Positions 35,805-57,194 of a stretch of 64,000 bases of DNA are shown piece after piece. The notes beneath the pieces are model-generated. The model was not told the origin of the DNA, did no database searches, and worked only from the letters and a program-made list of their open reading frames with translations. Origin of the DNA: an uncultured Clostridia bacterium. Lineage in GTDB: Bacteria > Bacillota > Clostridia > Oscillospirales > Ruminococcaceae. The DNA lies in the NCBI GenBank assembly GCA_945829235.1, contig CALZUA010000014.1:1-64000 (forward strand). The letters run 5' to 3'. A program made the translations under genes and the position numbers. How positions within the stretch are numbered: position 1 is the first letter of the stretch; every line of letters begins with the position of its first letter.

Positions 35805-35899
35805 GCAATTTCGGCGGCATCGAACCGCCGAAATTGCGCGGGTGAAGCAACGCCCTTTGTTGGCGAGAATTACAGGCTTGTAAGCGTTGCTTCACCCGC
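35805..35899 (+). repeat. two-hairpin element, copy A
   Basis: Hairpin 1: GCAATTTCGGCGG (35805-35817), loop CATCGAA, 35825-35837; 13 perfect pairs. Hairpin 2: GCGGGTGAAGCAACGC (35838-35853) with 35884-35899; 16 perfect pairs, 30-nt loop. Confidence 0.9.
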
Positions 35900-35964
35900 T
35901 CTGCGAGCTGAGTTTGCAAAAGCCGCAGGCTGTTGCCGAGCTTTACCGTTTCGCTTTCTCTGCA

Positions 35965-36295
35965 AAAGGTGCGGTCGATTTTTCGGGCATCGAACCCGAA
36001 AAATCGCGCGGGTGCAGTCACGCCCCGTTGTTATAGAAATTAACAAGTTTGTTAGGCGTGACTGCACCCGCGGCTTGAGCCGAGTTTTACCGTTTCGCTT
36101 GATTTGCGAAAACTTATCCCCTCCATTTTTCGGTATCGAACCGAAAAATGATAGGGGAGGTTGTTTGTGTTTAATTTTTAATTTTGCGCTTCGCGCCTAG
36201 TGGTCGCTTCGCTCCAGTGTGGGGCTTCGCCCCACGCCCCACAAGCCTTTTGAAAAAGGCTTGACCGAAAACTTTTTGTTCGCTTCGCGGTGCTC
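35965..36295. repeat. long direct repeat, left copy
   Basis: Base-for-base the same by eye as 40331-40660 (constant offset 4366 up to a one-base difference near 36278). It contains element B, the TATCGAA hairpin and the GC-rich tail. With its partner it brackets the operon 36342-39929. Confidence 0.88.
35976..36071 (+). repeat. two-hairpin element, copy B
   Basis: Hairpin 1: CGATTTTTCGGG (35976-35987), loop CATCGAA, 35995-36006; 12 pairs. Hairpin 2: GCGGGTGCAGTCACGCC (36008-36024) with 36055-36071; 17 pairs, 30-nt loop. Confidence 0.9.
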
Positions 36296-36309
36296 AAAAC
36301 CAACTTCGC

Positions 36310-36337
36310 AAAAAAGCGGGACTATCAAGCCCCGCTT
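36310..36337 (-). terminator. terminator of the Cthe_2159-like gene
   Basis: On the minus strand AAAGCGGG and CCCGCTTT pair around a 10-nt loop and are followed by a T-run (complement of 36310-36315). Confidence 0.78.
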
Positions 36338-36341
36338 TGTT

Positions 36342-38333
36342 TTATGCAACCGTGGAAGTGTGCTCCGGCTTTGTGAAGCCGTCCGGACGTTGTCCGCCCA
36401 TTCCGCCGCGACCGCCGAACCCGCCGTTCGCCGATGCACCGCCGCCCGTTACACCGGTTTCCGCTGTTACGGTTGACAGGAGCGTGTCATTCGCGTAAAT
36501 CGAGTAGCTCTCGCCGCTCTTGAACTTGTCGCTCGTGAATATCAGCGAGCCGCACTTTTTCGGCGTTGTTGTGCTCATCACAACGTTGCCAGAGCTGTCG
36601 CGAACCTCGATTTTGCTGTTCTCCGAAACGTCCGCGTAAATCGACAGACAAGGCTGTGAGAGAGTTCCGGGCGCTTGCGCCATACCCGAGCTACCGAGCG
36701 CAATCAGCTCGCCGCCGCTCACCGCAAAGGATTTCTCGTAGTCAATCGCGCCGTTTCCGCTGTCGGTCGGACCGTAAACCACAACAAAACCGCCGCTCAG
36801 CGCAATCGTGCCGTTGCTGTCAAGCCCGTCACCGTCCGCGTTCACCGTGATATTTCCGCCCGATATCGAGATGTAATAATCCTCGGTGTTCGAATTGAAG
36901 CCGAGCATATTGCCGTTGTCGCCGCCCGCCGCGTTGATTCCGTCATCAACCGCCTTGACGTTGATTTCACCGCCCGAAATCTCGATATTTTTACCCTCGA
37001 GCGCCTCGTAGCTCTTGGTGACGGTAATCTTGCCGCCGCTTATCACAAGCGTTTCATCTGCGTGAATACCGTCATCGCAGGATGAGAGCGCAAGCGTACC
37101 GTTTTTCACGGTAACATCGCCGTTGGAGTGAACGCTGTCGTCAGCCGCGTTGACGCTGATTTCGCCGCCCGTTATCACAACGCTTTTTCCCGCCTTCAAG
37201 CCCTTCATACTGTCTGAGGACTCGGTTGAACCGGTATCCTGAGCCGTTTTATCATCAACAGGAGTTGCTCCGGAAACCGCGTCGGCAGGGTTGAACCCGC
37301 TCGGCTTCTCGGGACGAGTCGTTCCGTTATCAGCGGGCGGCTTCATTGCACCGCCGTCGGGTGGCGTCATACCGCCGTTTCCATCGGGACGGAATTTGTT
37401 TCCGCCGCGGTTGTCGAAATCGAGGAAGCCGCGGTTGGTGGAGATATCCTTGTCGGCTTCGTCACCGCCGGCTTTGATGTTGATTTTGCCGCCGTTGACC
37501 GTGAGAACCGTTTCAGCCTGTATACCGTCTTTCGCGCTGTTTATCGTGATATCACCGCCGTCAATCGTGACATAGCCGCGTTTTTCGTCGGTATCATGCG
37601 TTGATTTTATGCCGTCACCGGTTGAGTTTATCGTGATTTTGCCGCCGGCAACCGTCACAAAATCCTTGCCGGTTATACCGTCATCGGCGGCGTTTATTTC
37701 AAGCGTACCGCCCGCAATCGAGAAGCCGTCCTTGCATTTCAGACCGTCCTTGTAGTTGCCGTTAATCGTGAGCGAGCCGCCCTCGCAGGCGTTGTACACG
37801 GTATCGCACCGCGAGAAAACCGCCGCATCGGGTTCGTCCTCACCCTCGGCAAAGGTGTAGTTTTCGGTATCGGCGAGCGTGTTTTTGGCGTTTTCGGCGG
37901 AGATTATCGAGAGTGATTTTGCCTTTTCGCAGTCGATAACCGCGCCGTTTTTGCTTGTCAGATTAACGCCGTTCAACAGCAGGGTTACTTCATCGTTGTC
38001 GGTTGCCTCAACCAGAATTTTCGCATCGGAACAATTTCCGCTGAGCGAGAAAACACCGGCACCGCTTATGGTGAGCGTGTTTCCGGAAACGGCGGCGTTT
38101 TTCCCGTCAACGCTGATTTTGTTGTCGGAGAACTCAACCTTGCAGGTAATCTGCTCGTTCTTGATTTCCGCAGAATTCAGCTTTGAGATTTCGCCGGTAT
38201 CGGAAGATGTTTCCGATACAGCACCTGTTGAGGAGCTGTCGGCGGGATTGCCCGTGCCGTTATCGTTTGAGCAACCCGTGATTGTGAAAGCCGCGGCGCA
38301 AAGTGCGGCGAGCATTTTGAAATTCATATCCAT
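36342..38333 (-). CDS. Cthe_2159-like carbohydrate-binding beta-helix lipoprotein
   Basis: 663 aa. A lipoprotein signal with lipobox ITGC (about 18-21) and a Ser/Thr spacer. Repeated turns of the form GDITINSAKDGIQAE, GTLEINAADDGITGK and GGKITVTKSYEALEGK mark the polygalacturonase-like beta-helix domain of the Cthe_2159 family, which binds acidic plant polysaccharides and calcium in its founding member. A low-complexity Gly/Pro/Asn-rich insert lies at about 325-375, and the C-terminus is Gly-rich (GGRGGMGGQRPDG). Third gene of the VTC/DUF4956 operon. The start is ATG 38333 behind GAGGTGATAAT. Confidence 0.85.
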   Translation of the reverse strand: MDMNFKMLAALCAAAFTITGCSNDNGTGNPADSSSTGAVSETSSDTGEISKLNSAEIKNEQITCKVEFSDNKISVDGKNAAVSGNTLTISGAGVFSLSGNCSDAKILVEATDNDEVTLLLNGVNLTSKNGAVIDCEKAKSLSIISAENAKNTLADTENYTFAEGEDEPDAAVFSRCDTVYNACEGGSLTINGNYKDGLKCKDGFSIAGGTLEINAADDGITGKDFVTVAGGKITINSTGDGIKSTHDTDEKRGYVTIDGGDITINSAKDGIQAETVLTVNGGKINIKAGGDEADKDISTNRGFLDFDNRGGNKFRPDGNGGMTPPDGGAMKPPADNGTTRPEKPSGFNPADAVSGATPVDDKTAQDTGSTESSDSMKGLKAGKSVVITGGEISVNAADDSVHSNGDVTVKNGTLALSSCDDGIHADETLVISGGKITVTKSYEALEGKNIEISGGEINVKAVDDGINAAGGDNGNMLGFNSNTEDYYISISGGNITVNADGDGLDSNGTIALSGGFVVVYGPTDSGNGAIDYEKSFAVSGGELIALGSSGMAQAPGTLSQPCLSIYADVSENSKIEVRDSSGNVVMSTTTPKKCGSLIFTSDKFKSGESYSIYANDTLLSTVTAETGVTGGGASANGGFGGRGGMGGQRPDGFTKPEHTSTVA

Positions 38334-38349
38334 ATTATCACCTCAAATA

Positions 38350-38580
38350 AACTACATTTCCTCGTGGTTATCGGTCAAAACACTGCACGAAATCGTGAGA
38401 AATCCGTTTGCTTCGCGCGGGAATTTAACTGCATTTCCTCGTGGTTATCGGTCAAAACACTGCACGAAACCGCGAGAAATCCGTTTGCTTCGCGCGGGGT
38501 TTTAACTACATTTCCTCGTGGTTGTCGGTCAAAACACTGCACGAAATTGTGAGATTTCCGTTTCGCGTGCGGATTTTGTC
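38350..38580. repeat. 77-bp tandem repeat, three copies, at the DUF4956 3' end
   Basis: AACTACATTTCCTCGTGG begins units at 38350, 38427 (AACTGC) and 38504, exactly 77 bp apart. The unit at 38504 is the last about 25 codons and stop of the DUF4956 gene; the other two copies lie after the stop. The period is not a multiple of three, so they cannot extend the protein. Confidence 0.88.
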
Positions 38581-39180
38581 GAGGAACTCCTTTTCCTTGT
38601 CGGCGTCCTTTATGACAACCTCGTACCTCAGCTCGTAGAGCGTTCCCATACTGACTGTTTTGGACATTATCAGACGGTAGCTTGAGAGGTACTCGGTGAA
38701 GATGTCCTTAAAGCAGTCCATATAGTTCATATCCTCGGGAATGAGGATTTTGAGCAACTTTGCGGTTTTTCTGATTTTGAACGCGGGGATAAAGTTGAGC
38801 ACACCGAGAATTAAACCCACGGCAACCGCGATGATAACCGCGTAGCCTATGTAACCCATACCGGTTGCCAAGCCGATTCCCATTGCGTAGAAAACGTAGC
38901 AGAGTTCTCTTGATGTACCGGGGGCGGAGCGGAAGCGAACGAGGTTGAATGCACCCATAACCGCAAGTCCCGCACCAACCGAGCCGTTAACCAGCATTAT
39001 TACCGATTGTACGAGAACCGGCAGGACAACCAGCGTTACCATAAGATTTTTCGATGGACGCGGGTTGTTGAGCCGATACAAAAGGGAAGCCAGAAGTCCG
39101 AGAACAGCCGAGGTGAGCGTGCAGAAAAACGCGCTTTCACCCGTAAGTCCAACCGTGCTGTCGATTATGCTTGAGAACAT
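38506..39180 (-). CDS. DUF4956 membrane protein
   Basis: 224 aa. Three to four N-terminal membrane helices (LTSAVLGLLASLLYRL, VTLVVLPVLVQSVIMLV, MGYIGYAVIIAVAVGLILG) with GAFNLVRFRSAPGTSRELCYVF between them, the DUF4956 hallmark, and a C-terminal cytosolic ferredoxin-like part. It overlaps the VTC gene by 16 bp. DUF4956 and VTC genes are commonly paired; the joint function, perhaps a membrane polyphosphate or cell-surface process, is not established. Confidence 0.87.
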   Translation of the reverse strand: MFSSIIDSTVGLTGESAFFCTLTSAVLGLLASLLYRLNNPRPSKNLMVTLVVLPVLVQSVIMLVNGSVGAGLAVMGAFNLVRFRSAPGTSRELCYVFYAMGIGLATGMGYIGYAVIIAVAVGLILGVLNFIPAFKIRKTAKLLKILIPEDMNYMDCFKDIFTEYLSSYRLIMSKTVSMGTLYELRYEVVIKDADKEKEFLDKIRTRNGNLTISCSVLTDNHEEM

Positions 39181-39929
39181 TGTTGTACACTCCTGATTTG
39201 TCTTATTTCGTTAAGGCAGATATTTCCATATTTGGAAAAAGAGCCGTTGTAAATTTTGTTTTCCGAGAGGATTTTCACAAGCCACATCGGAACTCCGCCA
39301 GCCGATTTCACTTCCATCACGCGAAACGGCTGATTTGCAAGCGGTTCGCCGTAATCGCCCTTGCGAAGGTCAAGCTCGGTTCGGCGACTGCGGATATTGC
39401 CGTCGAAGGTTAATCGGAACTCTCGGTCATCGTTTCCGTAAAACGCCTGCCTGTCGTAGCAGAGGACAATTGCGGGTGCAAGCTCCAGCCGCCTGATAAA
39501 GTAATCGGTTTCCTCGAAAACTTGGCGATTTTGCTCGTTAATCTGCGGCGGCGTGCCGTTCGTGATGTAATCGTGAAGCACCTTGTAGGGCAACTCCAGC
39601 CGCCTTTTGTACACAACACCCTTGAACTTTTTCTTTATCTCAAGAAACGCCTCGGAGTTGTCCGAAACCGTCCCGTAAGCGCGAAGCCGGAGCTTTTCCT
39701 TGTAAGCGGGCTTGCCGAGGGACGTGCGGATAACATCATTGTTTTGGTTGTCGAGGTAGATGTTGAGGATTGTGTTGAGGCCGTAGCTGTCGGCGGTCAT
39801 AAAGGGCCCGATTTTCTCGGAAATCAAGTTGAACTGCTCCTCGTTCAGCAGGAATTTCATCTCGTGCCGCTTGAACGTGTTGGCGTAGAACACTTGGTTC
39901 ACCACCTTTGTTTTTTCCGTTTCTGTCAT
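39165..39929 (-). CDS. VTC-domain protein (polyphosphate polymerase-like)
   Basis: 254 aa. The VTC tunnel fold of the triphosphate-tunnel superfamily is seen in FKRHEMKFLLNEEQF, LRLRAYGTVSDNSEAFLEIKKKFKGVVYKRR and RVMEVKSAGGVPMW: the E-x-K and Lys/Arg-rich strands that bind polyphosphate and metal. Eukaryotic VTC4 makes polyphosphate from ATP; bacterial homologues are mostly uncharacterised. First gene of the operon with DUF4956 and the beta-helix lipoprotein. Confidence 0.87.
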   Translation of the reverse strand: MTETEKTKVVNQVFYANTFKRHEMKFLLNEEQFNLISEKIGPFMTADSYGLNTILNIYLDNQNNDVIRTSLGKPAYKEKLRLRAYGTVSDNSEAFLEIKKKFKGVVYKRRLELPYKVLHDYITNGTPPQINEQNRQVFEETDYFIRRLELAPAIVLCYDRQAFYGNDDREFRLTFDGNIRSRRTELDLRKGDYGEPLANQPFRVMEVKSAGGVPMWLVKILSENKIYNGSFSKYGNICLNEIRQIRSVQQCSQA

Positions 39930-40124
39930 TATTATAGCAGGACTTTGTGATAATTTTATGTTAAAAAGGAAACATTTTTTAAAAAATCGGGGGAAAACTC
40001 CCCCGAAACCCTGTTTTCTCGAACTGAATTTGCCCTATAACTCAACTTTCTCGCAAACAGTCAACGCTTTGCGAGAAATTCGGGCGGTCTTTTGCGAACA
40101 GACGCGGGCTTCTGCGAAGCCTTG

Positions 40125-40219
40125 GCAATTTCGGCGGCATCGAACCGCCGAAATTGCGCGGGTGAAGCAACGCCCGTTGTTGGCGAGAACTGCGGGTTTG
40201 TAAGCGTTGCTTCACCCGC
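40125..40219 (+). repeat. two-hairpin element, copy C
   Basis: Hairpin 1: 40125-40137 with 40145-40157, loop CATCGAA, 13 pairs. Hairpin 2: 40158-40173 with 40204-40219, 16 pairs, 30-nt loop. The stems are those of copy A; the 30-nt loop differs at several positions. Confidence 0.9.
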
Positions 40220-40330
40220 TCTGCGAGCTGAGTTTGCGATATGTGCGGGTTGATGCCGAGCTTTAACGTTGGGCTGAGTTTGCTAAAGGTGCGGGCAGTT
40301 GCCGAGTTTTACCGTTTCGCTTGCTCAGCG

Positions 40331-40660
40331 AAAGGTGCGGTCGATTTTTCGGGCATCGAACCCGAAAAATCGCGCGGGTGCAGTCACGCCCCGTTGTTAT
40401 AGAAATTAACAAGTTTGTTAGGCGTGACTGCACCCGCGGCTTGAGCCGAGTTTTACCGTTTCGCTTGATTTGCGAAAACTTATCCCCTCCATTTTTCGGT
40501 ATCGAACCGAAAAATGATAGGGGAGGTTGTTTGTGTTTAATTTTTAATTTTGCGCTTCGCGCCTAGTGGTCGCTTCGCTCCAGTGTGGGGCTTCGCCCCA
40601 CGCCCCACAAGCCTTTTGAAAAAGGCTTGACCGAAAACTTTTTTTCGCTTCGCGGTGCTC
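40331..40660. repeat. long direct repeat, right copy
   Basis: Partner of 35965-36295, in the same orientation. Recombination between the two would remove or amplify about 4.37 kb carrying the whole VTC/DUF4956/beta-helix operon. Confidence 0.88.
40342..40437 (+). repeat. two-hairpin element, copy D
   Basis: Hairpin 1: 40342-40353 with 40361-40372, loop CATCGAA. Hairpin 2: 40374-40390 with 40421-40437, 17 pairs, 30-nt loop. Identical to copy B as part of the long repeat. Confidence 0.9.
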
Positions 40661-40680
40661 GCCACGGGTTTTGCAAAAAG

Positions 40681-42045
40681 TTAATTCTTCAGGCTCTGCA
40701 ACGGTGCCGGAATTCTACCGCCCCTCGAAATAAACTTCGCCGAGCTGAACTTGCTCACCGGCATAACCGGTCCGCTTCCGAACAGCCCGCCAAACTCCAG
40801 CGTTTCGCCCTCTTTCATTCCAATAGCCGGTATCACGCGCACCGCTGTTGTCTTTGAGTTCACCATACCGATAGCCGCCTCGTCCGCGATTATCGCCGAA
40901 ATCGTTTCTGCGGGCGTATCGCCGGGGATTACAATCATATCCAGTCCCACCGAGCACACCGCCGTCATCGCCTCCAGCTTCTCCAGCGACAGCGAACCAC
41001 GGTTCACCGCGTCAATCATACCCGCGTCCTCGGATACCGGTATAAACGCGCCCGAAAGCCCGCCAACGTGCGAGGAAGCCATAACGCCACCCTTTTTCAC
41101 AGCGTCGTTGAGCATCGCAAGGCAAGCTGTCGTGCCGTGCGCACCACAGCTCTCCAAGCCGATTTCTTCCAAAATGTGTGCAACCGAGTCGCCGACCGCG
41201 GGAGTTGGCGCAAGCGACAAATCTACGATACCGAACGGCACGCCCAAGCGCTTTGAAGCCTCCGTGCCGACAAGCTGTCCCATTCTCGTGATTTTGAACG
41301 CGGTTTTCTTGATAACATCGGCAATCTCCGACATATTCGCGTCCGGGTACTTTTTGAGCGCCGCTCTCACGACACCGGGTCCCGACACGCCGACATTGAT
41401 TTCACAATCGTACTCACCAACACCGTGGAAAGCGCCCGCCATAAACGGATTGTCCTCGGGAGCGTTGCAGAAGACAACAATCTTCGCCGCGCCGAAACAG
41501 TGGTTGTCGGCAGTTTTTTCCGAAGCCTCGCGCACGATTTTTCCCATCAACGCAACCGCGTCCATATTGATACCCGCTTTTGTTGAACCGATGTTCACCG
41601 AGGAACAAACGTTGCTCGTGCAGGCAAGTGCCTCGGGAATACTCTCGATAAGCTCGCGGTCACCCGCCGAAAATCCCTTGTGTACCAACGCGGAATAGCC
41701 GCCGATGTAGTTCACGCCCGTCCCCTCGGCAACCCGCTGAAGCACTCTCGCGTACTCCACGGGGCTTTGTCCGTTCGCCGAAGAAGCCGCGGAAACCATT
41801 GCAATCGGGGTTACGGAAATGCGCTTGTTGATAATCGGGATACCGTACTGCTTCTCGATATCCTCGCCGGTTTTCACGAGATTTTCAGCCTTGCGCATCA
41901 TCTTCTCGTAGATTTTATCGCAGGCAGTTTTCGCGTTGTCCGAGATGCAGTCGAGAAGCGAAATGCCCATCGTAATCGTCCTGATGTCAAGATTTTCCTC
42001 TTGAATCATCTTGATTGTTTCCAAAATATCGCCCGTATTAAGCAA
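40681..42045 (-). CDS. PFL family protein (UPF0210/DUF711)
   Basis: 454 aa, full family length. [37 protein letters not shown] and [15 protein letters not shown] are the conserved blocks. The fold resembles the glycyl-radical (pyruvate formate-lyase) barrel, but no glycyl-radical motif is present; the reaction is unknown. It starts at TTG 42045 after GAGGACGG and follows the ACT-domain gene by 48 bp, its usual neighbour. Confidence 0.9.
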
Positions 42046-42093
42046 AAATAAACACCGTCCTCTTGTCTGAATTAACAGAATTTGTTAAAATTG

Positions 42094-42363
42094 TCAAATC
42101 TTGTGCATTGAATTAAAGATATCCTCGTGCATAACGTGGATTTGGAGCCCCATTTCATCGCCGGCTTTTTTCAGCTCATCAGCAAATGCTGAAAATTCCA
42201 CGCTCAGCTCGGAAATCTCGATAAGCATTGTCATTGCAAACAAATCCTGCATAACGGTCTGCGTCACGTCCATAACGTTCGCGCGGTGCTCGGCGCATAT
42301 CGCCGTAACCCTCGCCAGAATACCAACCGTGTCCTTACCTATTACAGCCACAACAGCTCTCAT
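42094..42363 (-). CDS. ACT-domain protein (UPF0237)
   Basis: 89 aa, a single ACT domain (MRAVVAVIGKDTVGILARVTAI at the start, IHVMHEDIFNSMHKI at the end). ACT domains bind amino acids and act as regulatory modules. It is regularly paired with the UPF0210 gene, as here, and may control it. The ribosome site GCGGAGGTAAAATT is strong. Confidence 0.92.
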   Translation of the reverse strand: MRAVVAVIGKDTVGILARVTAICAEHRANVMDVTQTVMQDLFAMTMLIEISELSVEFSAFADELKKAGDEMGLQIHVMHEDIFNSMHKI

Positions 42364-42413
42364 AATTTTACCTCCGCTAATTTTTTCGCGCGTTCTTTGC
42401 GCAATATATTTCT

Positions 42414-42442: not shown

Positions 42443-42449
42443 TAAGTTC

Positions 42450-42478: not shown

Positions 42479-43118
42479 ATAATGTGAAAGATAATCGATA
42501 TCACGTTTGGGGAGATTTTCGGGCTGTTTCGTTGAACCGGCTCGGCTTCTCGTGGATACTTTTGCGAACAGCACTCGGTTTCTCGTGAAAACGGCTCCCG
42601 TTCCGTCTACGGACGCGGGTTTCTGCAAAGCCTCGCTCCCGTTTTGTCTGCTGACACAGGCTTCTGCGAAGCCTTGGCATTTTCGGCGGCATCGAACCGC
42701 CGAAAATGCGCGGGTGCAGTCACGCCCCGCAGATTGCGGAGCTGACGAGCTTGTTAGGCGTGACTGCACCCGCCTGTTGAGCTAAGTTTGCTAGAAGGGA
42801 TTTGCGAATTTTTTTTCGTTCGCAAAAAAATTTGGCAATGGTCGCAAACTGATGTACAAGTTTCTTCGCTGATTTAAACAAAGCAAAATTGTTCTTTTTT
42901 TGGATTTACGCTTCGCTCCAGTAGCGGCGCTACCGCGCCGAGTGCCTTCGGCGACCAGAAACCTTTTTCTGAAGAAAAAGGTTAGGGAAACCGAAGGTTT
43001 CTCGGGGACATTCCAAAAAGACTTTTGGCGCTTCGCGGTGCTTGATTACAACAAAGCGATTAGCCCCGCACGAGTTTGCGAAAAATCCCCCCGTGATACC
43101 CCCGAAAGGAGCTACCAA
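42479..43118. repeat. non-coding repeat region before the Lrp-family gene
   Basis: It contains linker-like units (CGGCTTCTCG and CGGTTTCTCG near 42540-42590), element E (42677-42773), and a GC-rich tail with AACCTTTTTC/GAAAAAGGTT (about 42960-42982), similar in style to the tails at 36200 and 40560. No protein-coding gene is supported. Confidence 0.75.
42677..42773 (+). repeat. two-hairpin element, copy E
   Basis: Hairpin 1: GCATTTTCGGCGG (42677-42689), loop CATCGAA, 42697-42709; 13 pairs. Hairpin 2: 42710-42726 with 42757-42773; 17 pairs, 30-nt loop. It combines the hairpin 1 type of copies A/C, with a paired A-T swap, with the stem 2 type of copies B/D. Confidence 0.9.
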
Positions 43119-49302: not shown

Positions 49303-51312
49303 ATGGAAATTACTCTCTTAAAAGGCATTGGACAAAAGCGCGCTGAGCTTTACAAAAAGCTCGGAATTTCAACCGTTGAACAGCTCGTGCGGCTCTATCC
49401 GCGCGATTACATCGATTTCACAAATCCCGTTAAGATACGCGATTTACAGCTTGGCGAGAGTTGCGCGTTTCGGGCGAGTGTTGCCAAAAAAAGCTCGCCG
49501 TTCTCGATGTACGCGCGGACTGCGGTTTACAAGGTGCTCCTCACTGACGGCGAGGGTGAAATTACCGCTGTGTTTTTCAACACAAAGTTCGCGTTTGATA
49601 AGCTTGAATTATACAAAGAGTATTTATTTTATGGGAAAATCTCGGGCGATTTGGTGCATTTGCAGGTGAACACCCCGACCTATCTTCCCGTTAACCAAAC
49701 AGGCTTGCTTCCGAAATATCCCTTAACAGCGGGACTTTCACGCGAGAGCGTTACCAAAAATATCTCGGACGCGCTGGAAATTGTGCAAATTGACGAACGG
49801 TTGCCCGAGAGGATTGTGAAAAAATACTCTCTGTATAGTGCGGACGAAGCAGTCCGAAAAATTCATTTCCCGAAATCGCGCGAGGAGTACAAAGCGGCGC
49901 GAAAACGGCTTGTTTTCGAGGAGTTGCTCTCGCTGAAGCTCGGGCTGGCGCGGCTTAAAACGCGCGGAAAATCGCTCTCGGGTGCGGTTATGACCGAGGT
50001 TTCTCTGGAAGATTTTTACAATTCTCTCCCATTTACCCCGACCAACGCGCAAATTCGTGCAATTTCAGATTGCATTGCCGATATGAAACGACTGTTCCCG
50101 ATGAACCGACTTGTTCAGGGTGACGTTGGCTCGGGAAAGACTTTGGTTGCCGCCGCCGCCGCGTTTTTTGCACAAAGAAACGGCTTCCAGACAACCGTTA
50201 TGGCACCAACCGAAGTACTCGCCGCACAGCACTACGAAACGTTTCGCGGGTTCTTGGAGCCGCTCGGGATACGAGTCGGGCTGTTGTCGGGAGCGCTTTC
50301 GGCTACCGAGAAAAAGAAGGTGCGCGCCGCCGCCGCTGAGGGTGAAATCGACGTGCTCATCGGCACGCAAGCGCTGATTCAACGCAGTAGCGCGATGAAG
50401 AGACTCGGGCTTGCGATTGTCGATGAACAGCACCGTTTCGGCGTGTATCAGCGCTCGGAGCTTGCCGAAAAGGGCGCAAATCCGCACATTCTCGCGATGT
50501 CGGCAACGCCCATTCCGCGCACACTCGCGCTTATAATGTACGGCGACCTCGACGTTTCGATAATCAACGAAATGCCTCTCGGACGGCTCCCCGTCAAGAC
50601 TTACGCCGTTGACACCTCGTTTCGCAAGCGCCTTTACGCGTTCATCAAAAAACACATCGCGATGGGCTTGCAGGCGTTTATCGTCTGCCCGCTGGTTGAA
50701 GAAAACCAAGAGATGTCCGAGAAACAAAGCGCAATCGGTTACTACGAAAAACTCACGCGCGGCGAATTTGCGGGGATTCCGACGGGGTTGTTGTACGGCA
50801 AGATGAAGCAGGCGGAAAAGGAAGCCGTGATGCGCGATTTTCACGAAAACCGGCTGAAGCTGTTGATTTCGACAACCGTCATCGAGGTCGGGATTGACGT
50901 GCCGAACGCGGCGGTTATGCTCATCGAGAACGCCGAGCAATTCGGGCTGTCGCAACTCCACCAGCTCCGCGGGCGCGTCGGGCGCGGCTCGGTGCAGAGC
51001 TACTGCGTGCTGATGAGCGACAGCAAGACGGACTACGCGCGGGCGCGGTTTAAGGCAATGTGCGAAACGACCGATGGGTACAAAATTGCGGACGCGGATT
51101 TGGCTTTGCGTGGCCCCGGCAACTTTTTTGGCAAGGAACAACACGGGTTGCCGCCGATGAAGGTTGCTGATTTGGCGGACGATGCGGACGTTTTGGAGGA
51201 AGTTGAGGCGCTCGCGGACGAGATTTTGGCGGAGGACCCGCTGTTGGCACTCCCCGAGAACAAGGGCTTGCGGGAAGCCGTGGACGAGCTTTTTGCGGCG
51301 GGAAGTCTTTGA
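49303..51312 (+). CDS. recG: ATP-dependent DNA helicase RecG
   Basis: 669 aa. Wedge/OB domain at the N-terminus (LYPRDYIDFTNPVKI), helicase motifs I (GDVGSGKTLVAAAA), II (LAIVDEQHRFGV), III (LAMSATPIPRTL), and V-VI (STTVIEVGIDVPNA and LHQLRGRVGRG). RecG unwinds branched DNA at stalled forks. It follows fakA as in many Bacillota. The start is ATG 49303; the ribosome site (GGAAAAAG) is weak. Confidence 0.96.
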   Translation: MEITLLKGIGQKRAELYKKLGISTVEQLVRLYPRDYIDFTNPVKIRDLQLGESCAFRASVAKKSSPFSMYARTAVYKVLLTDGEGEITAVFFNTKFAFDKLELYKEYLFYGKISGDLVHLQVNTPTYLPVNQTGLLPKYPLTAGLSRESVTKNISDALEIVQIDERLPERIVKKYSLYSADEAVRKIHFPKSREEYKAARKRLVFEELLSLKLGLARLKTRGKSLSGAVMTEVSLEDFYNSLPFTPTNAQIRAISDCIADMKRLFPMNRLVQGDVGSGKTLVAAAAAFFAQRNGFQTTVMAPTEVLAAQHYETFRGFLEPLGIRVGLLSGALSATEKKKVRAAAAEGEIDVLIGTQALIQRSSAMKRLGLAIVDEQHRFGVYQRSELAEKGANPHILAMSATPIPRTLALIMYGDLDVSIINEMPLGRLPVKTYAVDTSFRKRLYAFIKKHIAMGLQAFIVCPLVEENQEMSEKQSAIGYYEKLTRGEFAGIPTGLLYGKMKQAEKEAVMRDFHENRLKLLISTTVIEVGIDVPNAAVMLIENAEQFGLSQLHQLRGRVGRGSVQSYCVLMSDSKTDYARARFKAMCETTDGYKIADADLALRGPGNFFGKEQHGLPPMKVADLADDADVLEEVEALADEILAEDPLLALPENKGLREAVDELFAAGSL

Positions 51313-51378
51313 CAGAGCGCGTTATAAAGCGCCGCGTTGCCCGAAATTGTTACATATACATATTTAAATATATCAATT

Positions 51379-51406
51379 AAGCAGTGCCTGACAGCACTGC
51401 TTTTTT
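51379..51406 (+). terminator. terminator after recG
   Basis: AAGCAGTGC and GCACTGCTT form a perfect 9-bp stem around CTGACA, followed by TTTT. Confidence 0.8.
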
Positions 51407-51458
51407 ATCTCTCGATAACAGCCGTTGAGTTAATTTCGGGGTTGGTCCGTGAATTTCA

Positions 51459-51559
51459 CGAACCGCGCTCAGCGGGAGTGTATAATAAAATCGCGAGGTA
51501 GCGAACCGCGCTCGGCGGGAGTGTATAATAAAATCGCGAGGTAGCGAACCGCGCTCGCC
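51459..51559. repeat. 43-bp tandem repeat carrying TATAAT
   Basis: Units start at 51459 and 51502, with one base different, and a partial third unit starts at 51545 (period 43). Each full unit contains GTGTATAATAAAATCGCG, so TATAAT occurs at 51481 and 51524. No gene lies between recG and the minus-strand sulfotransferase. Confidence 0.85.
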
Positions 51560-51709
51560 TTGCAGATTTATTGCACACCTTGAAATGAGCAAAAGTCCTT
51601 GATTTTCACGAACCACACCCGTCTGATGATACATTAACGGCGTGCAGGTGCGGCGAGTTGACCGAGCCGCGTGAGCTTCAGCAGTGTCGTTGACATTGCA
51701 CTTTCTGTG

Positions 51710-51738
51710 AAAAAACCCCCAAAGTTCAGCTTGGGGGG
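51710..51738 (-). terminator. terminator of the arylsulfotransferase operon
   Basis: On the minus strand CCCCCCAA and TTGGGGG pair around an 8-nt loop, followed by TTTTTT (complement of 51710-51715). Confidence 0.82.
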
Positions 51739-51753
51739 CATTGTTATTCACGT

Positions 51754-53241
51754 CTAAATCTCGTTCTTCTTAATCGATGCCACGCAAAAATCCAGTCGCT
51801 CGTCCTCGTCCTTCTTTTTGCTTGCCATACCCGTTATAACGCGCGCGTTCGGGTCAACACCGTCAACTGTGGTTATCTCGCCGACACCCGCACCGACAGG
51901 CGCTCCCGGAACTCTGAACGTTGCCGCGTCAATCGGCTCAATGCTTTCCTCAACGGGCTTCGCGAGTTGCGGAATCCAATCGTACGGCATACGGTACGCG
52001 CGGTAAATCATATTGTTGGTGAACTTGCCGAACATATTGTTGAAATACGGGTTGATGTACTCCCACACAATTTCGTGCTCGGGCGTAACCTCAAGCAAAT
52101 GCCCGTCACTGCCCTCGGTTATCAGCGTGTTTCCGTTGGGCAAGCGTTGCGCGGAGCTGATGTACGAGCTGTAAAACTTTGACGCGTCCGTGAACAAGAA
52201 GCAACCGTGCTCAAGCGGCGTGTATTGCCACGTTATTTCAAGCGTAACCGGATTGAACTGCAAAACTCTTGAATAATCGCGGTGCGCGTTGTTGTTACCG
52301 GTAGGAGAAGCGGGGTTCGGCACACCGTAGCCGCCCTCGCCGCCGTTGTCGTACACCAACAAGTCACCCTCACCCGGCAACCCTTTCGGTATCATATGCA
52401 GGTGATGCTGACCGATAATCCAGCCGAGCTTGCGGGTAGCCTCGTTCTCGTTGAAATCGGGTCCCAAGCGCCACACAATCTTGCCGGTGCTTTTCTCAAT
52501 GATAGCGAGAATGTTAGAGTTTCGCGCGTCGAAAATTATATTGTCGGGGTGAAAACGCGTGTCGCCTGCGTCATACCACTTGTTTTCACCGAGCGTTGCG
52601 AAGTTGTTGACGTGCATCCAGTCGCCGCCCGCTTCACCGTGCAGACCGGGGTTTCTGAACAGCACGTTTTTCGCCGCCTCGTCAAAGCCGAGTTCATCGA
52701 AATGGTCGCTTGCGCGCCAGCTCCAAACGATGTTTCCGTCCCAGTCAACCTCGATTATCTTGTCGTCAATCAGCCGTTTGTCCGAGATATTGTGGTTATA
52801 GAGGTTCTCGTGGGTGAGAATGAGCGTGTTGCCGCTTGATGTTTTCGGTTCACCGTTGGGATAATAGTAGCCGACAGTCGAGCCCTCGCGCTGAAAATCG
52901 TGGTGTTGACGAGCCATATAAACGGGATTTTCGGGGTCATCGGCAACCAACTCGGTCTTGTCGAATTTCCACACAATATGCCCGTCCCAGTCCACCTGAA
53001 CAAGGTCAACTTGGTCTTGATAAGCATTTTTTCCGGTACGCGCGGCGGTTGTTCCCATAACGTAACCGCCGGGCAAAATCTTGTTCGGGAAACCGCCAAG
53101 CCCTGCCCAGAGCTTAACCTCGTTTCCTCTCATATCAATCAACAGCGCGCCCTTTGATGACGGGAAAATCGTGTAGCCGCTGTACGCCTTTTCCTTATTG
53201 TAACGCAAAGTACCCGTTGGGAAAATTGTTGGATAACCCAT
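51754..53241 (-). CDS. arylsulfotransferase (ASST)-family protein
   Basis: 495 aa. The ASST beta-propeller family is seen in repeated blades DWDGNIVWSW, STGKIVWRLGPDF, TLEITWQY and EHEIVWEY, with H-rich motifs MARQHHDFQREG, GDWMHVNNF and GWIIGQHHLHMIPKG. ASSTs move sulfate between phenolic compounds using a His intermediate. Many are periplasmic; here no signal peptide is visible, so this one should be cytoplasmic. It is last in an operon with an ABC importer. The start follows TAAGGAGGACAAAAA. Confidence 0.88.
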   Translation of the reverse strand: MGYPTIFPTGTLRYNKEKAYSGYTIFPSSKGALLIDMRGNEVKLWAGLGGFPNKILPGGYVMGTTAARTGKNAYQDQVDLVQVDWDGHIVWKFDKTELVADDPENPVYMARQHHDFQREGSTVGYYYPNGEPKTSSGNTLILTHENLYNHNISDKRLIDDKIIEVDWDGNIVWSWRASDHFDELGFDEAAKNVLFRNPGLHGEAGGDWMHVNNFATLGENKWYDAGDTRFHPDNIIFDARNSNILAIIEKSTGKIVWRLGPDFNENEATRKLGWIIGQHHLHMIPKGLPGEGDLLVYDNGGEGGYGVPNPASPTGNNNAHRDYSRVLQFNPVTLEITWQYTPLEHGCFLFTDASKFYSSYISSAQRLPNGNTLITEGSDGHLLEVTPEHEIVWEYINPYFNNMFGKFTNNMIYRAYRMPYDWIPQLAKPVEESIEPIDAATFRVPGAPVGAGVGEITTVDGVDPNARVITGMASKKKDEDERLDFCVASIKKNEI

Positions 53242-53253
53242 TTTTTGTCCTCC

Positions 53254-54282
53254 TTAATTGTACGCGGTCAAAAGCCTTGCCGTTACCCGCTCGGGGAAGG
53301 CAACCTTAGCCGCTTTATCATTATAGAATTGCCGGATATTGTAATCCTCGGGGAACTTGCCGTTCGCGAACGCCCAGTCCTTCACGCTTGAAAGGTGCGC
53401 GGCGGCTTCCTCGGAAAGCCCGAATTTAATGGTGAGCTGAGTCCAGTTGCTCTTGAAATCCTCGGCTTCTATGCCAAATCTTGCGGCAATTTTCTCGGCT
53501 GATTCATCGAGATGGCTGTTGATATAGGCAACGCTCTCGTCAAGTGCCTTGATGTAATTCGCGAGCAACTCGCTGTTTTTCTCGGCAAAATCCTTGGTTG
53601 TGATAAGGTAACTGCTCACGTCAATCCCGATGTCCTTCGGCGAGGCAACCAGCTTCCAGCCTTGTTCTTCGTAACGCTTGCCCTGCGCACCCGTTGCAAC
53701 AACCGCCGATGCGTCACCGTTTTTCGCGAGTGCAAGTGAGGTCATATTCGAGTCAGTCTGAACAACCTTTTGCTTGGAGATATCCAACCCAAGATAGGTC
53801 TGAGCCTGCCAGTTGAAATATTCGATAACCGTGCCGATTTGCGTAATCCAACCCTCGCTGTCGTTGAGCGCTTTGAGGTTATCCGCATACTTTGGTGCAA
53901 CGTACAACCCGCCGTTTGTGGACACACCCGAAGCAAGGTCTGAGAAAATCACCAAGGTGTTCGCGTGGAGCGTGTTTCCGAAGCGGTTGACGGCGGCAAA
54001 ATCCGCGAGAATACCCGTATCCGCTGTACCGGTGACGATGGAGTCAACGGTGTTGATGCCCGCGACAAACTCGGTTGTCTGCACGTCAATGCCGTACTTC
54101 TTGAAAATGCCCTGTTCTATGCCGATATAGTCGGCGTACTGGTCGGGCTGTCCTGTCATATTGGCAACCCGAAGCGTCTTCAGCTCGCCGTTTCCCGTGG
54201 GTGCGGCGCTGTTCGAGCAAGCGGCAAGCGCTGTTGTCGATAAAGCCAGAATTGCCGATAAAATAATTTTCTTGATATTCAT
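53254..54282 (-). CDS. ABC transporter substrate-binding lipoprotein (SsuA/TauA/NMT1-like)
   Basis: 342 aa. Lipobox ALAAC (C22). The opening LRVANMTGQPDQYADYIGIEQGIFKKYGIDVQ is the usual nitrate/sulfonate/taurine-type periplasmic-binding start. Likely ligand is an organosulfur compound such as a sulfonate or sulfate ester, judged from the ASST and sulfur genes nearby. The start is ATG 54282 behind AAAGAGGTAACAATT; an upstream in-frame ATG overlaps that site. Confidence 0.88.
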   Translation of the reverse strand: MNIKKIILSAILALSTTALAACSNSAAPTGNGELKTLRVANMTGQPDQYADYIGIEQGIFKKYGIDVQTTEFVAGINTVDSIVTGTADTGILADFAAVNRFGNTLHANTLVIFSDLASGVSTNGGLYVAPKYADNLKALNDSEGWITQIGTVIEYFNWQAQTYLGLDISKQKVVQTDSNMTSLALAKNGDASAVVATGAQGKRYEEQGWKLVASPKDIGIDVSSYLITTKDFAEKNSELLANYIKALDESVAYINSHLDESAEKIAARFGIEAEDFKSNWTQLTIKFGLSEEAAAHLSSVKDWAFANGKFPEDYNIRQFYNDKAAKVAFPERVTARLLTAYN

Positions 54283-54443
54283 AATTGTTACCTCTTTCAT
54301 TTATTTTGTATTGCGAGAGAACCCGCGAAGCGTTTGTTGAAGCCGTTTCGCGCTGACGATTACCGCACTCGTTATCGATTACCGCGCCCGATACCGAGAA
54401 CCGCGCCGGTTATCGAGAACCGCGCGAAGCGTTGCCCGAAACG
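54283..54443. other. non-coding gap with recurring ATCGAGAACCGCG motif
   Basis: 161 bp between permease and binding-protein genes. GTTATCGAGAACCGCG and related ACCGAGAACCGCG copies lie near 54390-54425. The complementary form TTCTCGATAACG is found at 32.4 and 61.9 kb. No terminator or gene seen. Confidence 0.5.
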
Positions 54444-55223
54444 TCACTTTACTCCGAAATGCTTGAGCTTGTGTTTGCCGATGAAAAGCAAAATTCTGTC
54501 CATCGCAAAGCCGATGACCGCGAGCGTGACAATGCCCGCGAACGCCCAGCCTGTCTTGTAGTACAGCTTTGAGCTGTTGATGAGGTAGCCCAAGCCGTCG
54601 CTTCCGACAAGCATTTCCGCCGCCACAACGCAGGTTATCGATGAGCCAAGTCCGAGCCGCACACCCGTGAAGATGTTTGACACCGCGGACGGCACGACAA
54701 CCGTGAAAAACACGCGGATTTTCTTCGCGCCCATGCACGAAGCCGCTTCTGTGAGCGAGCGGTCAACCGAGGCTACACCCGCTATCGTGTTGACGAAAAT
54801 CGGGAAAAACGCCGCGTAAAATATCAGCGCAACCTTCGATTGGTCACCCACGCCAAACCACATAAGAAACAGCGTTGTGAGAGCAACTGCGGGTACAAAG
54901 CGGAAAAAGTTCAGGATAGGTTCAACAAGCCAGCGCACGGGCTTGAAGTTGCCGACAAGCAACCCGAGCGGTACGCCGACAGCCGCCGCCAACAACCAAC
55001 CTTTGAAAATCCTCCCAAAGCTTGCGAGAATGTCCTGCCAAAGCACGCCGCTTTCAACAAGCGTGCCCATACTCGAAACGGTTTCGGGCGGGCTTGGGAG
55101 AAAGTACTCGTCGTATGCGAGCGAGCCGAGCCACCAGATGCCGATGATGATTATCCACGACAACACGCCGCTTTTCAAAATCCTCCGCACGATATCGCGA
55201 GGAGTTGTTTTCTTCTTGTTCAT
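54444..55223 (-). CDS. ABC transporter permease (SsuC/TauC-like)
   Basis: 259 aa with about six membrane helices. EAASCMGAKKIRVFFTVVVPSA is the EAA contact loop, and PVRWLVEPILNFFRFVPAVAL is typical of nitrate/sulfonate/taurine permeases. The start is ATG 55223 behind TGAGGAGGAAACT; an ATG further up lies inside the ATPase gene. It lies 10 bp after the ATPase gene. Confidence 0.9.
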   Translation of the reverse strand: MNKKKTTPRDIVRRILKSGVLSWIIIIGIWWLGSLAYDEYFLPSPPETVSSMGTLVESGVLWQDILASFGRIFKGWLLAAAVGVPLGLLVGNFKPVRWLVEPILNFFRFVPAVALTTLFLMWFGVGDQSKVALIFYAAFFPIFVNTIAGVASVDRSLTEAASCMGAKKIRVFFTVVVPSAVSNIFTGVRLGLGSSITCVVAAEMLVGSDGLGYLINSSKLYYKTGWAFAGIVTLAVIGFAMDRILLFIGKHKLKHFGVK

Positions 55224-55233
55224 AGTTTCCTCC

Positions 55234-56301
55234 TCAGATGTAGTAGACATCGCTTGCGTCAAGACCTTTGTTCAAGAGGATTGCGGTTTCGTTGCCGCTT
55301 ATCGTGTACAGCTTCTTGATGAGCACCTTAACCTTGTCGCCGCGTTTCAGGCGGGGCGCGTTGAGGTCGTACCTGCCGGTGAGCGTCTGCCCGTCAATCT
55401 TCACAAGCACCTCAAAAACGTTCCCGCGGAACAGGATTTCCTCGACAACACCGTCCTCCATCGAGCTTTCGTACTGGTGGAAGCCGTTGTCCTCGAACTT
55501 GTTTATCTCGATGAACTCAGGGCGGATAACCGCGGTTTTTGACGCTTCGGACTGAGTGAAGCCCTTGAGCGAGCCGTAGTTCTCGATTACAGCGGATTGC
55601 CCGATAAACTGCGCTACAAACGGTGTTTTCGGGTTAAGGTAGATTTCAACGGGGTTGCCGACTTGTTCAACCTTGCCGTTGTTGGTGATGATAATCTCAT
55701 CGGCAACCTCAACCGCTTCATCTTGGTCGTGAGTGACGAAAATGCTGGTGATGCCAACCTTGTCGATTGTTTCGCGAAGCCAACCGCGAAGCTCCTTACG
55801 CACCTTTGCGTCAATTGCCGCGAACGGCTCGTCGAGGAGGAGAAGCTCGGGTTGCGGCGCGAGGGCTCTTGCGAGGGCAATGCGCTGTCGTTGACCGCCG
55901 CTGAGTTGGTCGGGGTAGCGTTTTTCAAGCCCCGGCAAGCCGACAAGCTCGAGCAACTCGGCAACACGGTTTTTGATGAACGCCTTGTCCTTTTTCTGCA
56001 CCTTCAGACCGTAGGCGATGTTGTCGAACACCGTTTTAAACGGGAACAACGCGTAATTCTGGAACACGAAGCCGATGCCTCTTTCGTTCACGGGCAAGCT
56101 GTTGACGTTTTTGCCGTCAATGAAGATATCGCCGCTGTCCTGCTTTTCAAGCCCCGCGAGAATGCGGAGGATTGTGGTTTTGCCGCTTCCGCTCGGTCCG
56201 AGCAGACCGATGAGCTTGCCTTTTTCGATGCCAAAGCTCACGTTGTCGCTTGCTTTGAAATCGCCGAAGGTCTTGTCTATGTTTTTTAACTCGATGTACA
56301 T
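55234..56301 (-). CDS. ABC transporter ATP-binding protein with TOBE extension (CysA-like)
   Basis: 355 aa. Walker A GPSGSGKTT, signature LSGGQRQRIALARAL, Walker B LLLLDEPFAAID. A C-terminal TOBE region of about 110 residues is present. The segments KELRGWLRETIDK, SIFVTHDQDEAVEVAD and FVAQFIGQSA look like sulfate CysA proteins rather than SsuB, which lacks TOBE. It thus combines a CysA-like ATPase with an SsuC-like permease, which hints at control by the ATPase C-terminus. First gene of the operon. Confidence 0.9.
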   Translation of the reverse strand: MYIELKNIDKTFGDFKASDNVSFGIEKGKLIGLLGPSGSGKTTILRILAGLEKQDSGDIFIDGKNVNSLPVNERGIGFVFQNYALFPFKTVFDNIAYGLKVQKKDKAFIKNRVAELLELVGLPGLEKRYPDQLSGGQRQRIALARALAPQPELLLLDEPFAAIDAKVRKELRGWLRETIDKVGITSIFVTHDQDEAVEVADEIIITNNGKVEQVGNPVEIYLNPKTPFVAQFIGQSAVIENYGSLKGFTQSEASKTAVIRPEFIEINKFEDNGFHQYESSMEDGVVEEILFRGNVFEVLVKIDGQTLTGRYDLNAPRLKRGDKVKVLIKKLYTISGNETAILLNKGLDASDVYYI

Positions 56302-56421
56302 ATTATTAACTCCATTGTCCGACTATTAAAATTCCGTTCAACATCGACCGCTCGGACACATTCGGAGCATACGAAAAATTCGTTTGCTTTTCATAAATGT
56401 TTGTTCCTTTGCTGAATTTCT

Positions 56422-56438
56422 CATATATTTCCTATATG
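56422..56438. promoter_or_regulatory. inverted repeat in the ABC-operon leader
   Basis: CATATA-TTTCC-TATATG, a perfect 6-bp inverted repeat with a 5-bp centre, lies just downstream of the -10 box. A regulator binding here would block transcription. The regulator is not identified. Confidence 0.45.
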
Positions 56439-56452
56439 TTTAGTGTGCTATG

Positions 56453-56481
56453 ATTATACAATTTTTCCCGAGAAATGTCAA
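56453..56481 (-). promoter_or_regulatory. promoter of the arylsulfotransferase/ABC operon
   Basis: On the minus strand TTGACA (complement of 56476-56481), 17-bp spacer, TATAAT (complement of 56453-56458): a full consensus promoter. Confidence 0.85.
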
Positions 56482-56602
56482 GAGTATTTTGGAAACTTTG
56501 GCGATTTTTACACATTTATCAAAAATCACTATAAACTTGTGTACATATTTGCCATATCTGATTAGTAGGATATGCCAATTTGCAAAAAATTCTCGAAAAA
56601 GC

Positions 56603-56631
56603 TTGACAAATGCGCCAAAATGGGATATAAT
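56603..56631 (+). promoter_or_regulatory. promoter of the thioredoxin gene
   Basis: TTGACA (56603-56608), 17-bp spacer, TATAAT (56626-56631), 52 bp before the ATG. Confidence 0.87.
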
Positions 56632-56683
56632 GTCTACAAAACTACTATGCATATAGGAATAACGGGATATGGAGGAACAAGAA

Positions 56684-56992
56684 ATGTTGACACAACTGAC
56701 GGCGGCGAATTTAAGTGAGGTTTTGGGAACGGAGAAAGCGCTGGTGGTGGAGTTTTACTCGCCGACCTGCGCACATTGCAAGAAGACGGAGGTAGGGCTT
56801 GCAGAAATCTCGGAGAGCGATGATGTAATGATAGCGAAATGCGACATCACCGAGGAAACCGCGCTTGCTGAAAAGTACGATATAACCGCGCTTCCAACGC
56901 TCCTTTTCATCAAGAACGGCGAAATTCGGGAGCGGCTGGTTGGGTTCACGCACAAGCTGATAATTTTGGAGAACATCAAAAAATTGCAATAA
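56684..56992 (+). CDS. thioredoxin-like protein with CAHC active site
   Basis: 102 aa, a single thioredoxin fold. The active site is C29-A-H-C32 instead of the usual CGPC, and the cis-Pro is in ITALPTLLF. CxHC sites are known to be more oxidising in DsbA-type proteins (established for CPHC), so redox potential may differ. The start is ATG 56684, with TGGAGGAACAAGAA before it; an in-frame ATG at 56669 contains the site. A trxB gene lies 3 kb away. Confidence 0.85.
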   Translation: MLTQLTAANLSEVLGTEKALVVEFYSPTCAHCKKTEVGLAEISESDDVMIAKCDITEETALAEKYDITALPTLLFIKNGEIRERLVGFTHKLIILENIKKLQ

Positions 56993-56997
56993 AAAAC

Positions 56998-57028
56998 GCG
57001 CGTTGGTGCAAAAGCCGACGCGCTTTTT
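56998..57028 (+). terminator. terminator of the thioredoxin gene
   Basis: GCGCGTTGG and CCGACGCGC pair with one wobble around an 8-nt loop, followed by five T. Confidence 0.82.
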
Positions 57029-57098
57029 GCGGTAGACAATGCTCTGCGGGAACTCTTGGCGAGGTTTGCGAACGGGGGCGGGTTTCTGCGAAACCTTG

Positions 57099-57194
57099 GC
57101 ATTTTCGGCGGCATCGAACCGCCGAAAATGCGCGGGCGAAGCCACGCACGAAGGCTGTTGAAAGAACGGGTTTGGATAGCGTGGCTTCGCCCGC
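57099..57194 (+). repeat. two-hairpin element, copy F
   Basis: Hairpin 1: 57099-57111 with 57119-57131, loop CATCGAA, 13 pairs. Hairpin 2: GCGGGCGAAGCCACGC (57132-57147) with 57179-57194, 16 pairs, 31-nt loop. The stem 2 sequence differs from all other copies, yet pairs perfectly. Located 14 kb from the nearest other copy. Confidence 0.9.

Follow-up and report, generated by a model that had tools for sequence, protein, structure and literature searches.

The window, by which we mean the whole 64,000-nucleotide stretch analysed here, carries six copies of an intergenic element built of two hairpins, and all six were found at the positions and in the orientation given by the first-pass annotation of this DNA. 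Hairpin 1 is 33 nt long, with 13 bp and the loop CATCGAA, at 35805, 40125, 42677 and 57099, and has 12 bp at 35975 and 40341. It is followed directly by hairpin 2, with 16-17 bp and a loop of 30-31 nt. The stem arm variants noted earlier, each with a matching opposite arm, are indeed present. The elements and their neighbours, all on the - strand, are as follows.

35805..35837, - strand: hairpin 1, 13 bp, - strand loop TTCGATG
35838..35899, - strand: hairpin 2, slot type GCGGGTGAAGCAACGC, loop of 30
35975..36007, - strand: hairpin 1, second copy, 12 bp
36008..36071, - strand: hairpin 2, slot type GCGGGTGCAGTCACGCC, loop of 30
36124..36150, - strand: hairpin 3, - strand loop TTCGATA, flanks CCCCT...AGGGG
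36242..36263, - strand: gene-proximal hairpin CAAGCCTTTTGAAAAAGGCTTG, placed by its offset from the 40608 copy
36342..38333, - strand: adjoining gene, Cthe_2159 (PF14262), an exception in having its own intrinsic terminator
40125..40157, - strand: hairpin 1
40158..40219, - strand: hairpin 2, slot type GCGGGTGAAGCAACGC, loop of 30
40341..40373, - strand: hairpin 1, second copy, 12 bp
40374..40437, - strand: hairpin 2, slot type GCGGGTGCAGTCACGCC, loop of 30
40490..40516, - strand: hairpin 3, - strand loop TTCGATA
40608..40629, - strand: gene-proximal hairpin CAAGCCTTTTGAAAAAGGCTTG
40681..42045, - strand: adjoining gene, DUF711 (PF05167), its stop codon followed at once by the array
42677..42709, - strand: hairpin 1 of an array between divergent genes, which breaks the orientation rule
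42710..42773, - strand: hairpin 2, slot type GCGGGTGCAGTCACGCC, loop of 30
43015..43037, - strand: right-end module AAAAAGACTTTT...GCTTCGCG
57099..57131, - strand: hairpin 1
57132..57194, - strand: hairpin 2, slot type GCGGGCGAAGCCACGC, loop of 31
57387..58997, - strand: right-hand neighbour gene, no Pfam match, 3' end toward the element

The related hairpin 3 (loop TATCGAA in the + strand reading, at 36124-36150 and 40490-40516) was absent from the first-pass annotation, which also lacked additional hairpins on the right-hand side and the copies in the rest of the genome. When one mismatch is allowed, GGCATCGAACC occurs eight times in the window (shuffle mean 1.4; eight reached in 0 of 100 shuffles). 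Relative to shuffled sequence, the region 40100-40680 folds with z scores of -12.0 on the - strand and -10.1 on the + strand; in absolute folding energy, the + strand is the better.

Mosaic hairpin arrays as a lineage-specific family

The loop core GGYATCGAACC has 46 exact copies in the host genome (reversed control, 0), grouped in 26 clusters that are all intergenic, and the array family is also found in two other genomes, its carriers being a small set of related gut bacteria. The position of hairpin 2 is a slot occupied by unrelated hairpins. What had been described as a two-hairpin unit is not fixed but belongs to a longer chain whose components can be exchanged, hairpin 2 being one of many alternatives; likewise, the loop CATCGAA is invariant among the six window copies, as claimed, but the family has 13 loop forms. 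Many arrays occupy orthologous sites in the three genomes, and their modules differ at 16 of 18 such sites, which were chosen by hand. A covariance-model search gave weak matches in a further 14 genomes from the order, most of which look unrelated by eye. Two of these (L129 and L137, from one genus) have the stem GCATTTTCGGCGG in common, with a loop other than that of the arrays, and a third (L139) has the loop CATCGAG on a different stem, followed by a T-run, and looks terminator-like. The arrays, the six elements included, are a lineage-specific family of mosaic intergenic hairpin arrays.

BIMEs are intergenic palindromes joined into mosaics with linkers, and our arrays resemble them in being dispersed between genes as mosaics made up of several palindromic modules. 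However, array chains keep the same orientation whereas REPs alternate, and unrelated hairpins share one slot in the arrays. Membership in the REP/RAYT system was rejected, as neither its transposase nor its tag was seen: the Y1/RAYT transposase PF01797 was not detected in the host genome by a search that was positive in 5 of 14 control genomes, and at 40 hairpin 1 sites the unpaired GTAG/CGTC foot tag was absent from the eight most frequent 5' tetramers (together 34 of 40 sites) and from all five 3' tetramers (40 of 40). The pneumococcal BOX, RUP and SPRITE repeats, in the descriptions available from parts of PMC3049150, are similarly modular, lineage-specific and variable in length at orthologous sites. 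The likeness is one of kind; the lineage is different, and array modules are whole alternative hairpins whereas BOX consists of repeated boxB units.

Such dispersal, limited to a few genomes, could also reflect non-autonomous mobile DNA, that is, REP- or MITE-like substrates of a transposase or recombinase that have no host function and are merely tolerated behind genes. We regard this as possible, at rather long odds. Relatives lack arrays behind their orthologues of the DUF711 and thioredoxin genes, and BOX, RUP and SPRITE, considered parasitic, are likewise enriched between convergent genes according to portions of PMC3049150. A clean empty site flanked on both sides did not turn up. Against mobility stand the lack of a Y1 transposase in the host genome and of the GTAG/CGTC tag among the listed flanks, the many arrays at orthologous sites in three genomes, and the lack of an abutting target site duplication at any of the 8 loci, out of 9, that could be read, where the best shared strings were 4-6 nt and the element ends are placed only roughly. 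With regard to carriage by phages or plasmids, 40100-40680 had no match in a phage or plasmid collection. Pattern matches in IMG/VR (18 + 18 stretches) look like chance, because paired hairpin 1 occurred in 0 of 36 loci and the partner arm of hairpin 2 in 0 of 18 (second set). Replication-strand targeting was also rejected: GC skew in element orientation is both positive and negative across the element-holding regions.

Constraint on a folded molecule and its strand

In hairpin 1, 9 of 13 pairs have changed on both sides. Its covariation score was 0.415, compared with 0.138 for shuffled and at most 0.130 for slid controls, and 51 cells carried a both-side change against 13.5. Selection on a folded RNA or single-stranded DNA had been suggested from the window copies, and covariation so far above the controls supports a constraint on a folded molecule. 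An alternative that we consider improbable is that the arrays are old palindromic repeats of no function, in which template switching or gene conversion, acting between arms and between copies, maintains the similarity of the arms. Only a handful of discrete stem types recur across many copies, some hairpins are chimaeric and combine arms of different types, two in each, and modules have been swapped at orthologous sites, all in keeping with such correction. The chimaeric hairpins mean that recombination at the loop happens, and modules are plausibly swapped by recombination between arrays. Yet the changes in the stem affect 9 of 13 pairs and leave its length constant, and unrelated hairpins in one slot require selection or modular insertion.

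The mismatches also bear on this question. Read on the + strand, interior mismatches comprise 16 A·C, equivalent to G·U on the - strand, and 2 G·T; in a comparison set of 27 terminators read in the sense direction, G·T numbered 13 and A·C 4. Hand filtering, done after inspection, changed the raw 16 to 2 into 11 to 0; the mismatches removed were three A·C, which lay in terminators belonging to adjoining genes, and two G·T, of which the first fell outside the element and the second was a chance extension. Arm correction is not strand-specific and so does not predict this excess of A·C over G·T. The same bias could arise from strand-biased mutation in transcribed DNA. At 11 of the 13 tandem sites, the adjoining upstream gene has the - strand as its sense strand (11 vs 2, P = 0.022), and folding relative to shuffles is better on the - strand in 37 of 55 regions (P = 0.018), a small difference. 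The one-sided mismatches, the tandem orientation bias and the slightly better - strand folding together favour RNA on the - strand over single-stranded DNA, and the first two are unexpected for the hairpins of mobile DNA. The RNA strand is therefore probably the - strand, opposite to the earlier description, a conclusion with moderate support.

The first-pass annotation knew of no named RNA family of this form, and we found no Rfam family at its threshold: the whole window yielded two tRNAs only, and four loci searched with E up to 1 gave three weak matches, all below gathering scores.

Arrays at gene ends and their proposed function

For gene-end distance, 30 loci were examined and 29 kept, some of them orthologous to host loci; L161 was excluded as a weak match within a coding region. 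At the 15 loci with a recognised array end and a convergent right-hand gene, the right end of the array lies 1-73 nt from the stop codon (median 23). Right-hand genes pointing away from the array made up 4 of 25 loci in one count and 5 of 29 in another. Like intrinsic terminators, the arrays are strong hairpins right after stop codons and mostly sense with the gene; unlike them, they are hairpins in series, generally lack a U-tract and form a dispersed repeat family. A recognisable terminator directly behind the adjoining gene was found in 3 of 21 cases, whereas 7 of the 12 left-hand genes on the + strand had one (P = 0.016); set against the 26 of 78 among all remaining gene ends, the deficit is not significant (P = 0.11). 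Across the 21 intergenic regions, 14 have no - strand intrinsic terminator anywhere and 7 have - strand U-tract terminators with no fixed place in the array; the intrinsic form, a GC-rich hairpin with a U-tract, is thus not a general feature of the arrays.

Small RNA genes transcribed independently from promoters of their own, perhaps on the + strand, would fit the strong folding of both strands and an AT-rich, promoter-like stretch seen by eye upstream of the 42677 array. However, stop codons adjoin most arrays, array make-up differs between sites and there is no Rfam match, and we consider this explanation highly improbable.

Our combined findings lead us to infer, with about even confidence, that the arrays are a BIME/BOX-like repeat specific to this lineage and serve as exchangeable 3' ends of mRNAs, with the - strand as the RNA. 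On that strand, a typical array would run from the neighbour's stop codon through several gene-proximal hairpins to the hairpin 2 slot, holding an interchangeable strong hairpin, and then to a terminal hairpin 1 of 13 bp with a 7-nt T-loop-like cap. This chain would form the 3' end of the adjoining gene's mRNA and would stop transcription, block 3'-5' exonucleases, or both. Effects on termination and mRNA stability have been proposed for REP/BIME (in sections of PMC3733652), and SPRITE repeats have been suggested to be co-opted terminators (in parts of PMC3049150).

The T-loop-like cap

On the - strand, YUNRANN fits all 13 loop forms, with loop orientation set by the neighbouring modules and two slot-hairpin loops left out of the 13; all 13 have a UNRA core in a 7-nt loop closed by a G-C pair. 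By the T-loop definition taken from part of PMC4810234, the array loops resemble the tRNA T-arm in the 7-nt loop, G-C closure, U at position 2, purine at 4 and A at 5. Position 1, however, is U in 7 of 13 forms and C in 6 of 13, and a C there would break the usual U1-A5 reverse Hoogsteen pair. The array hairpin also differs from the T-arm in its 13-bp stem and lack of a D-arm.

At 12-13 bp, the stem of hairpin 1 is about the length of an acceptor stem plus T-stem of tRNA. A genome-wide exchangeable mRNA 3'-end system whose ends are tRNA-like minihelices (12-13 bp plus T-loop) recruiting tRNA enzymes is conceivable but very unlikely; RNase P, RNase Z or the pseudouridine synthase TruB would then cut, modify or protect messages. 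One host loop form, GUUCGAUGC, fits GUUCNANNC, the motif reported for TRUB1 in the relevant portion of PMC5713356.

Whether mosaic hairpin repeats act as DNA or RNA has rarely been settled, though the repeats themselves are known. Here, covariation, the G·U-type mismatch bias, gene orientation and module differences make the RNA hypothesis directly testable, and if 3' hairpins of mRNAs do carry a conserved T-loop-like cap, this would point to the protein or RNA that reads it.

Modular hairpin arrays between genes

Re-reading the window sequence confirmed the places assigned to six elements in the first-pass annotation. They form part of mosaic chains of hairpins lying between genes:

About 35805, 35976, 40125, 40342, 42677 and 57099: starts of the six elements, each hairpin 1 plus hairpin 2
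40681-42045, - strand: DUF711 gene

Hairpin 1 (33 nt) carries the loop CATCGAA in all six, with a stem of 13 bp in four and 12 bp in two, and is followed directly by hairpin 2 (stem 16-17 bp, loop 30-31 nt). Allowing at most one mismatch, GGCATCGAACC occurs at eight sites in the window, compared to 1.4 in shuffles; two of these are a related hairpin absent from the earlier list, hairpin 3, with the loop TATCGAA. An Rfam scan of the window returned two tRNAs and nothing else, and at E values up to 1 four array loci gave three weak matches, all sub-threshold.

Read rightwards along the + strand, a complete array comprises an GGCTTCTGCGAAGCC-type hairpin (not always present), hairpins 1 and 2, a linker after which these two may recur, in some cases hairpin 3, additional hairpins, and a right end (e.g., AAAAAGACTTTT...GCTTCGCG). 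At the 19 loci where this end was recognised, 1 to 104 nt separate it from the next gene. Hairpin 2 occupies an exchangeable slot. The 66 distinct combinations of a hairpin 1 with its follower hold 27 distinct arms (length variants counted), among them the unrelated GCGGGTGCAGTCACGCC, GCGGCTACCTACGCGCGCA, GCATTTTCATCGGC and TTGGGGAACACCCC; no slot hairpin was recognised in nine combinations.

The first two arrays differ in their left halves but are near-identical for ~300 bp on the right (35975-36290 and 40341-40655); a recent event, either duplication or gene conversion, would fit this pattern. To the left of the first array, at 35689-35800, are linker-like repeats with no hairpin 1. At another host locus (G000:C6:24500-36500), the array has to its left a tandem repeat whose unit is based on GCGAACAGTACCGGCTTTG, and similar strings occur as single copies left of other arrays. 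The 42677 array is flanked by divergent genes; the called start of the gene there (42942) probably precedes the true one, given that its AsnC-type domains set in only at about residue 63 and that an ATG is present downstream.

Extent of the family and turnover at fixed sites

The host genome (G000; 3.2 Mb, 52 contigs) contains 46 exact sites of the core GGYATCGAACC and none of the reversed control. These group into 26 clusters, all intergenic by gene calls made in this analysis. The ends of contigs C14, C10 and C44 and the starts of C4 and C8 fall within or close to an array or the gene-proximal hairpin of one; assembly thus likely breaks there, and copy numbers may be underestimates.

A DNA search in 20 relatives gave no match. 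A covariance-model search of the host and its relatives had been proposed in the first-pass annotation; with a hairpin 1 model, 16 of 394 genomes of the order had matches, strong only in G000 and G312, a genome of the same genus, and weak in the rest. The family is larger than first thought. A pattern scan of assembled genome contigs found hairpin 1 in nine stretches of two MAGs: JAGASH (Oscillospiraceae, water deer colon; three core sites, reversed control 0), which is G312 by identical coordinates, and CAMEQX (uncultured Clostridia; 15 core sites, reversed control 1). Of the 394 genomes, only G000 (23 copies) and G312 (19 copies) contain the gene-proximal hairpin ACCTTTTTCTGAAGAAAAAGGT. Two genomes of one other genus carry a hairpin with the stem GCATTTTCGGCGG and a different loop.

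Among the matches listed, array flanks are ~75-93% identical at many sites across three genomes. In 18 site sets hand-picked from these matches, with hairpin strings judged by eye, the string differs in 16 and is essentially unchanged in two (L091/L048/L074 and L163/L156). At the G312 orthologue of the 42677 site, hairpin 1 differs by a compensated pair and hairpin 2 is wholly different. Sixteen other genomes of the genus match the DUF711 gene, and in none of the 13 with at least 600 readable bases behind it was this array found (L185 and L188, not readable, and L187, with only 88 bases, were left out). One relative without this array, G006, has a different hairpin-rich stretch of ~150 bp behind this gene. 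The G312 orthologue of the thioredoxin gene is followed by a terminator instead of the array seen at 57099, and the next gene differs.

Structure and strand

Covariation was assessed on the - strand reading of 25 distinct hairpin 1 sequences, against shuffled and slid controls. Paired cells amounted to 95.1% versus 79.3% in shuffles, both sides had changed at nine of 13 pairs, and the covariation score was 0.415 versus 0.138 for shuffles and at most 0.130 for slid controls; a measure of further pair types was weaker, being reached by 31 of 500 shuffles. Watson-Crick pairs make up 567 of 598 cells at the 46 host sites, a count that includes hairpin 3 with only 11 bp. Two host hairpins join arms of two different types, so recombination at the loop does occur.

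On the + strand, the 95 distinct hairpins (1331 pairs) of 55 array regions have 16 interior mismatches of type A.C, two G.T and 14 other. An A.C mismatch there becomes a G.U pair in - strand RNA. The asymmetry is 16 to 2 in raw counts (P = 0.0013) and 11 to 0 by distinct context (P = 0.001) after five cases outside the element or extended by chance were removed by hand; related copies are not independent. Sense readings of 27 intrinsic terminators, the control, had 13 G.T, four A.C and 14 other. Strand-biased mutation could mimic such an asymmetry. Measured against shuffles, folding is better on the - strand in 37 of 55 regions (P = 0.018). For 40100-40680, the + strand has the better absolute energy (-276.6 versus -258.2 kcal/mol) and the - strand the better z-score. 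The earlier proposal of selection on a folded RNA or single-stranded DNA is supported by covariation as to structure; the probable RNA is the - strand, opposite to the one described.

On the - strand, all 13 loop forms conform to Y-U-N-R-A-N-N and are closed by a G-C pair. A T-loop is described as five residues around a U-turn, closed by a U1-A5 reverse Hoogsteen pair (in a passage of PMC4810234); the match is incomplete, with C at position 1 in six of 13 forms. The host form GUUCGAUGC fits the TRUB1 motif, given as GUUCNANNC in a passage of PMC5713356.

Position behind genes and probable role

The right-hand neighbour lies on the - strand in 21 of 25 host clusters where it is known, versus 54 of 114 intergenic regions of at least 100 bp (P = 0.0002); left-hand neighbours are + in 12 and - in 13. 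Since convergent sites are uninformative on orientation, tandem sites are the fairer test: 13 in the host favour - strand sense to the adjoining gene by 11 to 2 (P = 0.022), or 13 to 3 (P = 0.021) with three tandem loci lacking an orthologue among the compared stretches. Of 29 further loci, some of them orthologous, 24 have a - strand gene on the right. Intrinsic terminators were recognised after three of 21 adjoining genes (one being the array's own hairpin), compared to seven of 12 left-hand + strand genes (P = 0.016) and 26 of 78 other gene ends (P = 0.11); a stricter scan found - strand terminators in seven of the 21 intergenic regions.

No Y1 transposase was found in the host genome, no evident target duplications in eight readable loci and no REP tags, which weakens the alternative that the arrays are mobile DNA. 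Membership in REP was set aside, as neither this transposase nor these tags were found. The closest published picture we found is that of pneumococcal BOX, RUP and SPRITE, the last suggested to serve as a terminator (in a passage of PMC3049150), and a survey of 40 bacterial genomes (PMC2267715) includes families of stem-loop repeats presumed to function at the RNA level. No name for this family appeared in titles or abstracts found among open-licence papers. The arrays are best filed as a new variety of modular intergenic hairpin repeats, outside REP. Judging from strand, place and structure, the mRNA of the adjoining gene most likely ends in the hairpin chain, which would terminate or protect it.
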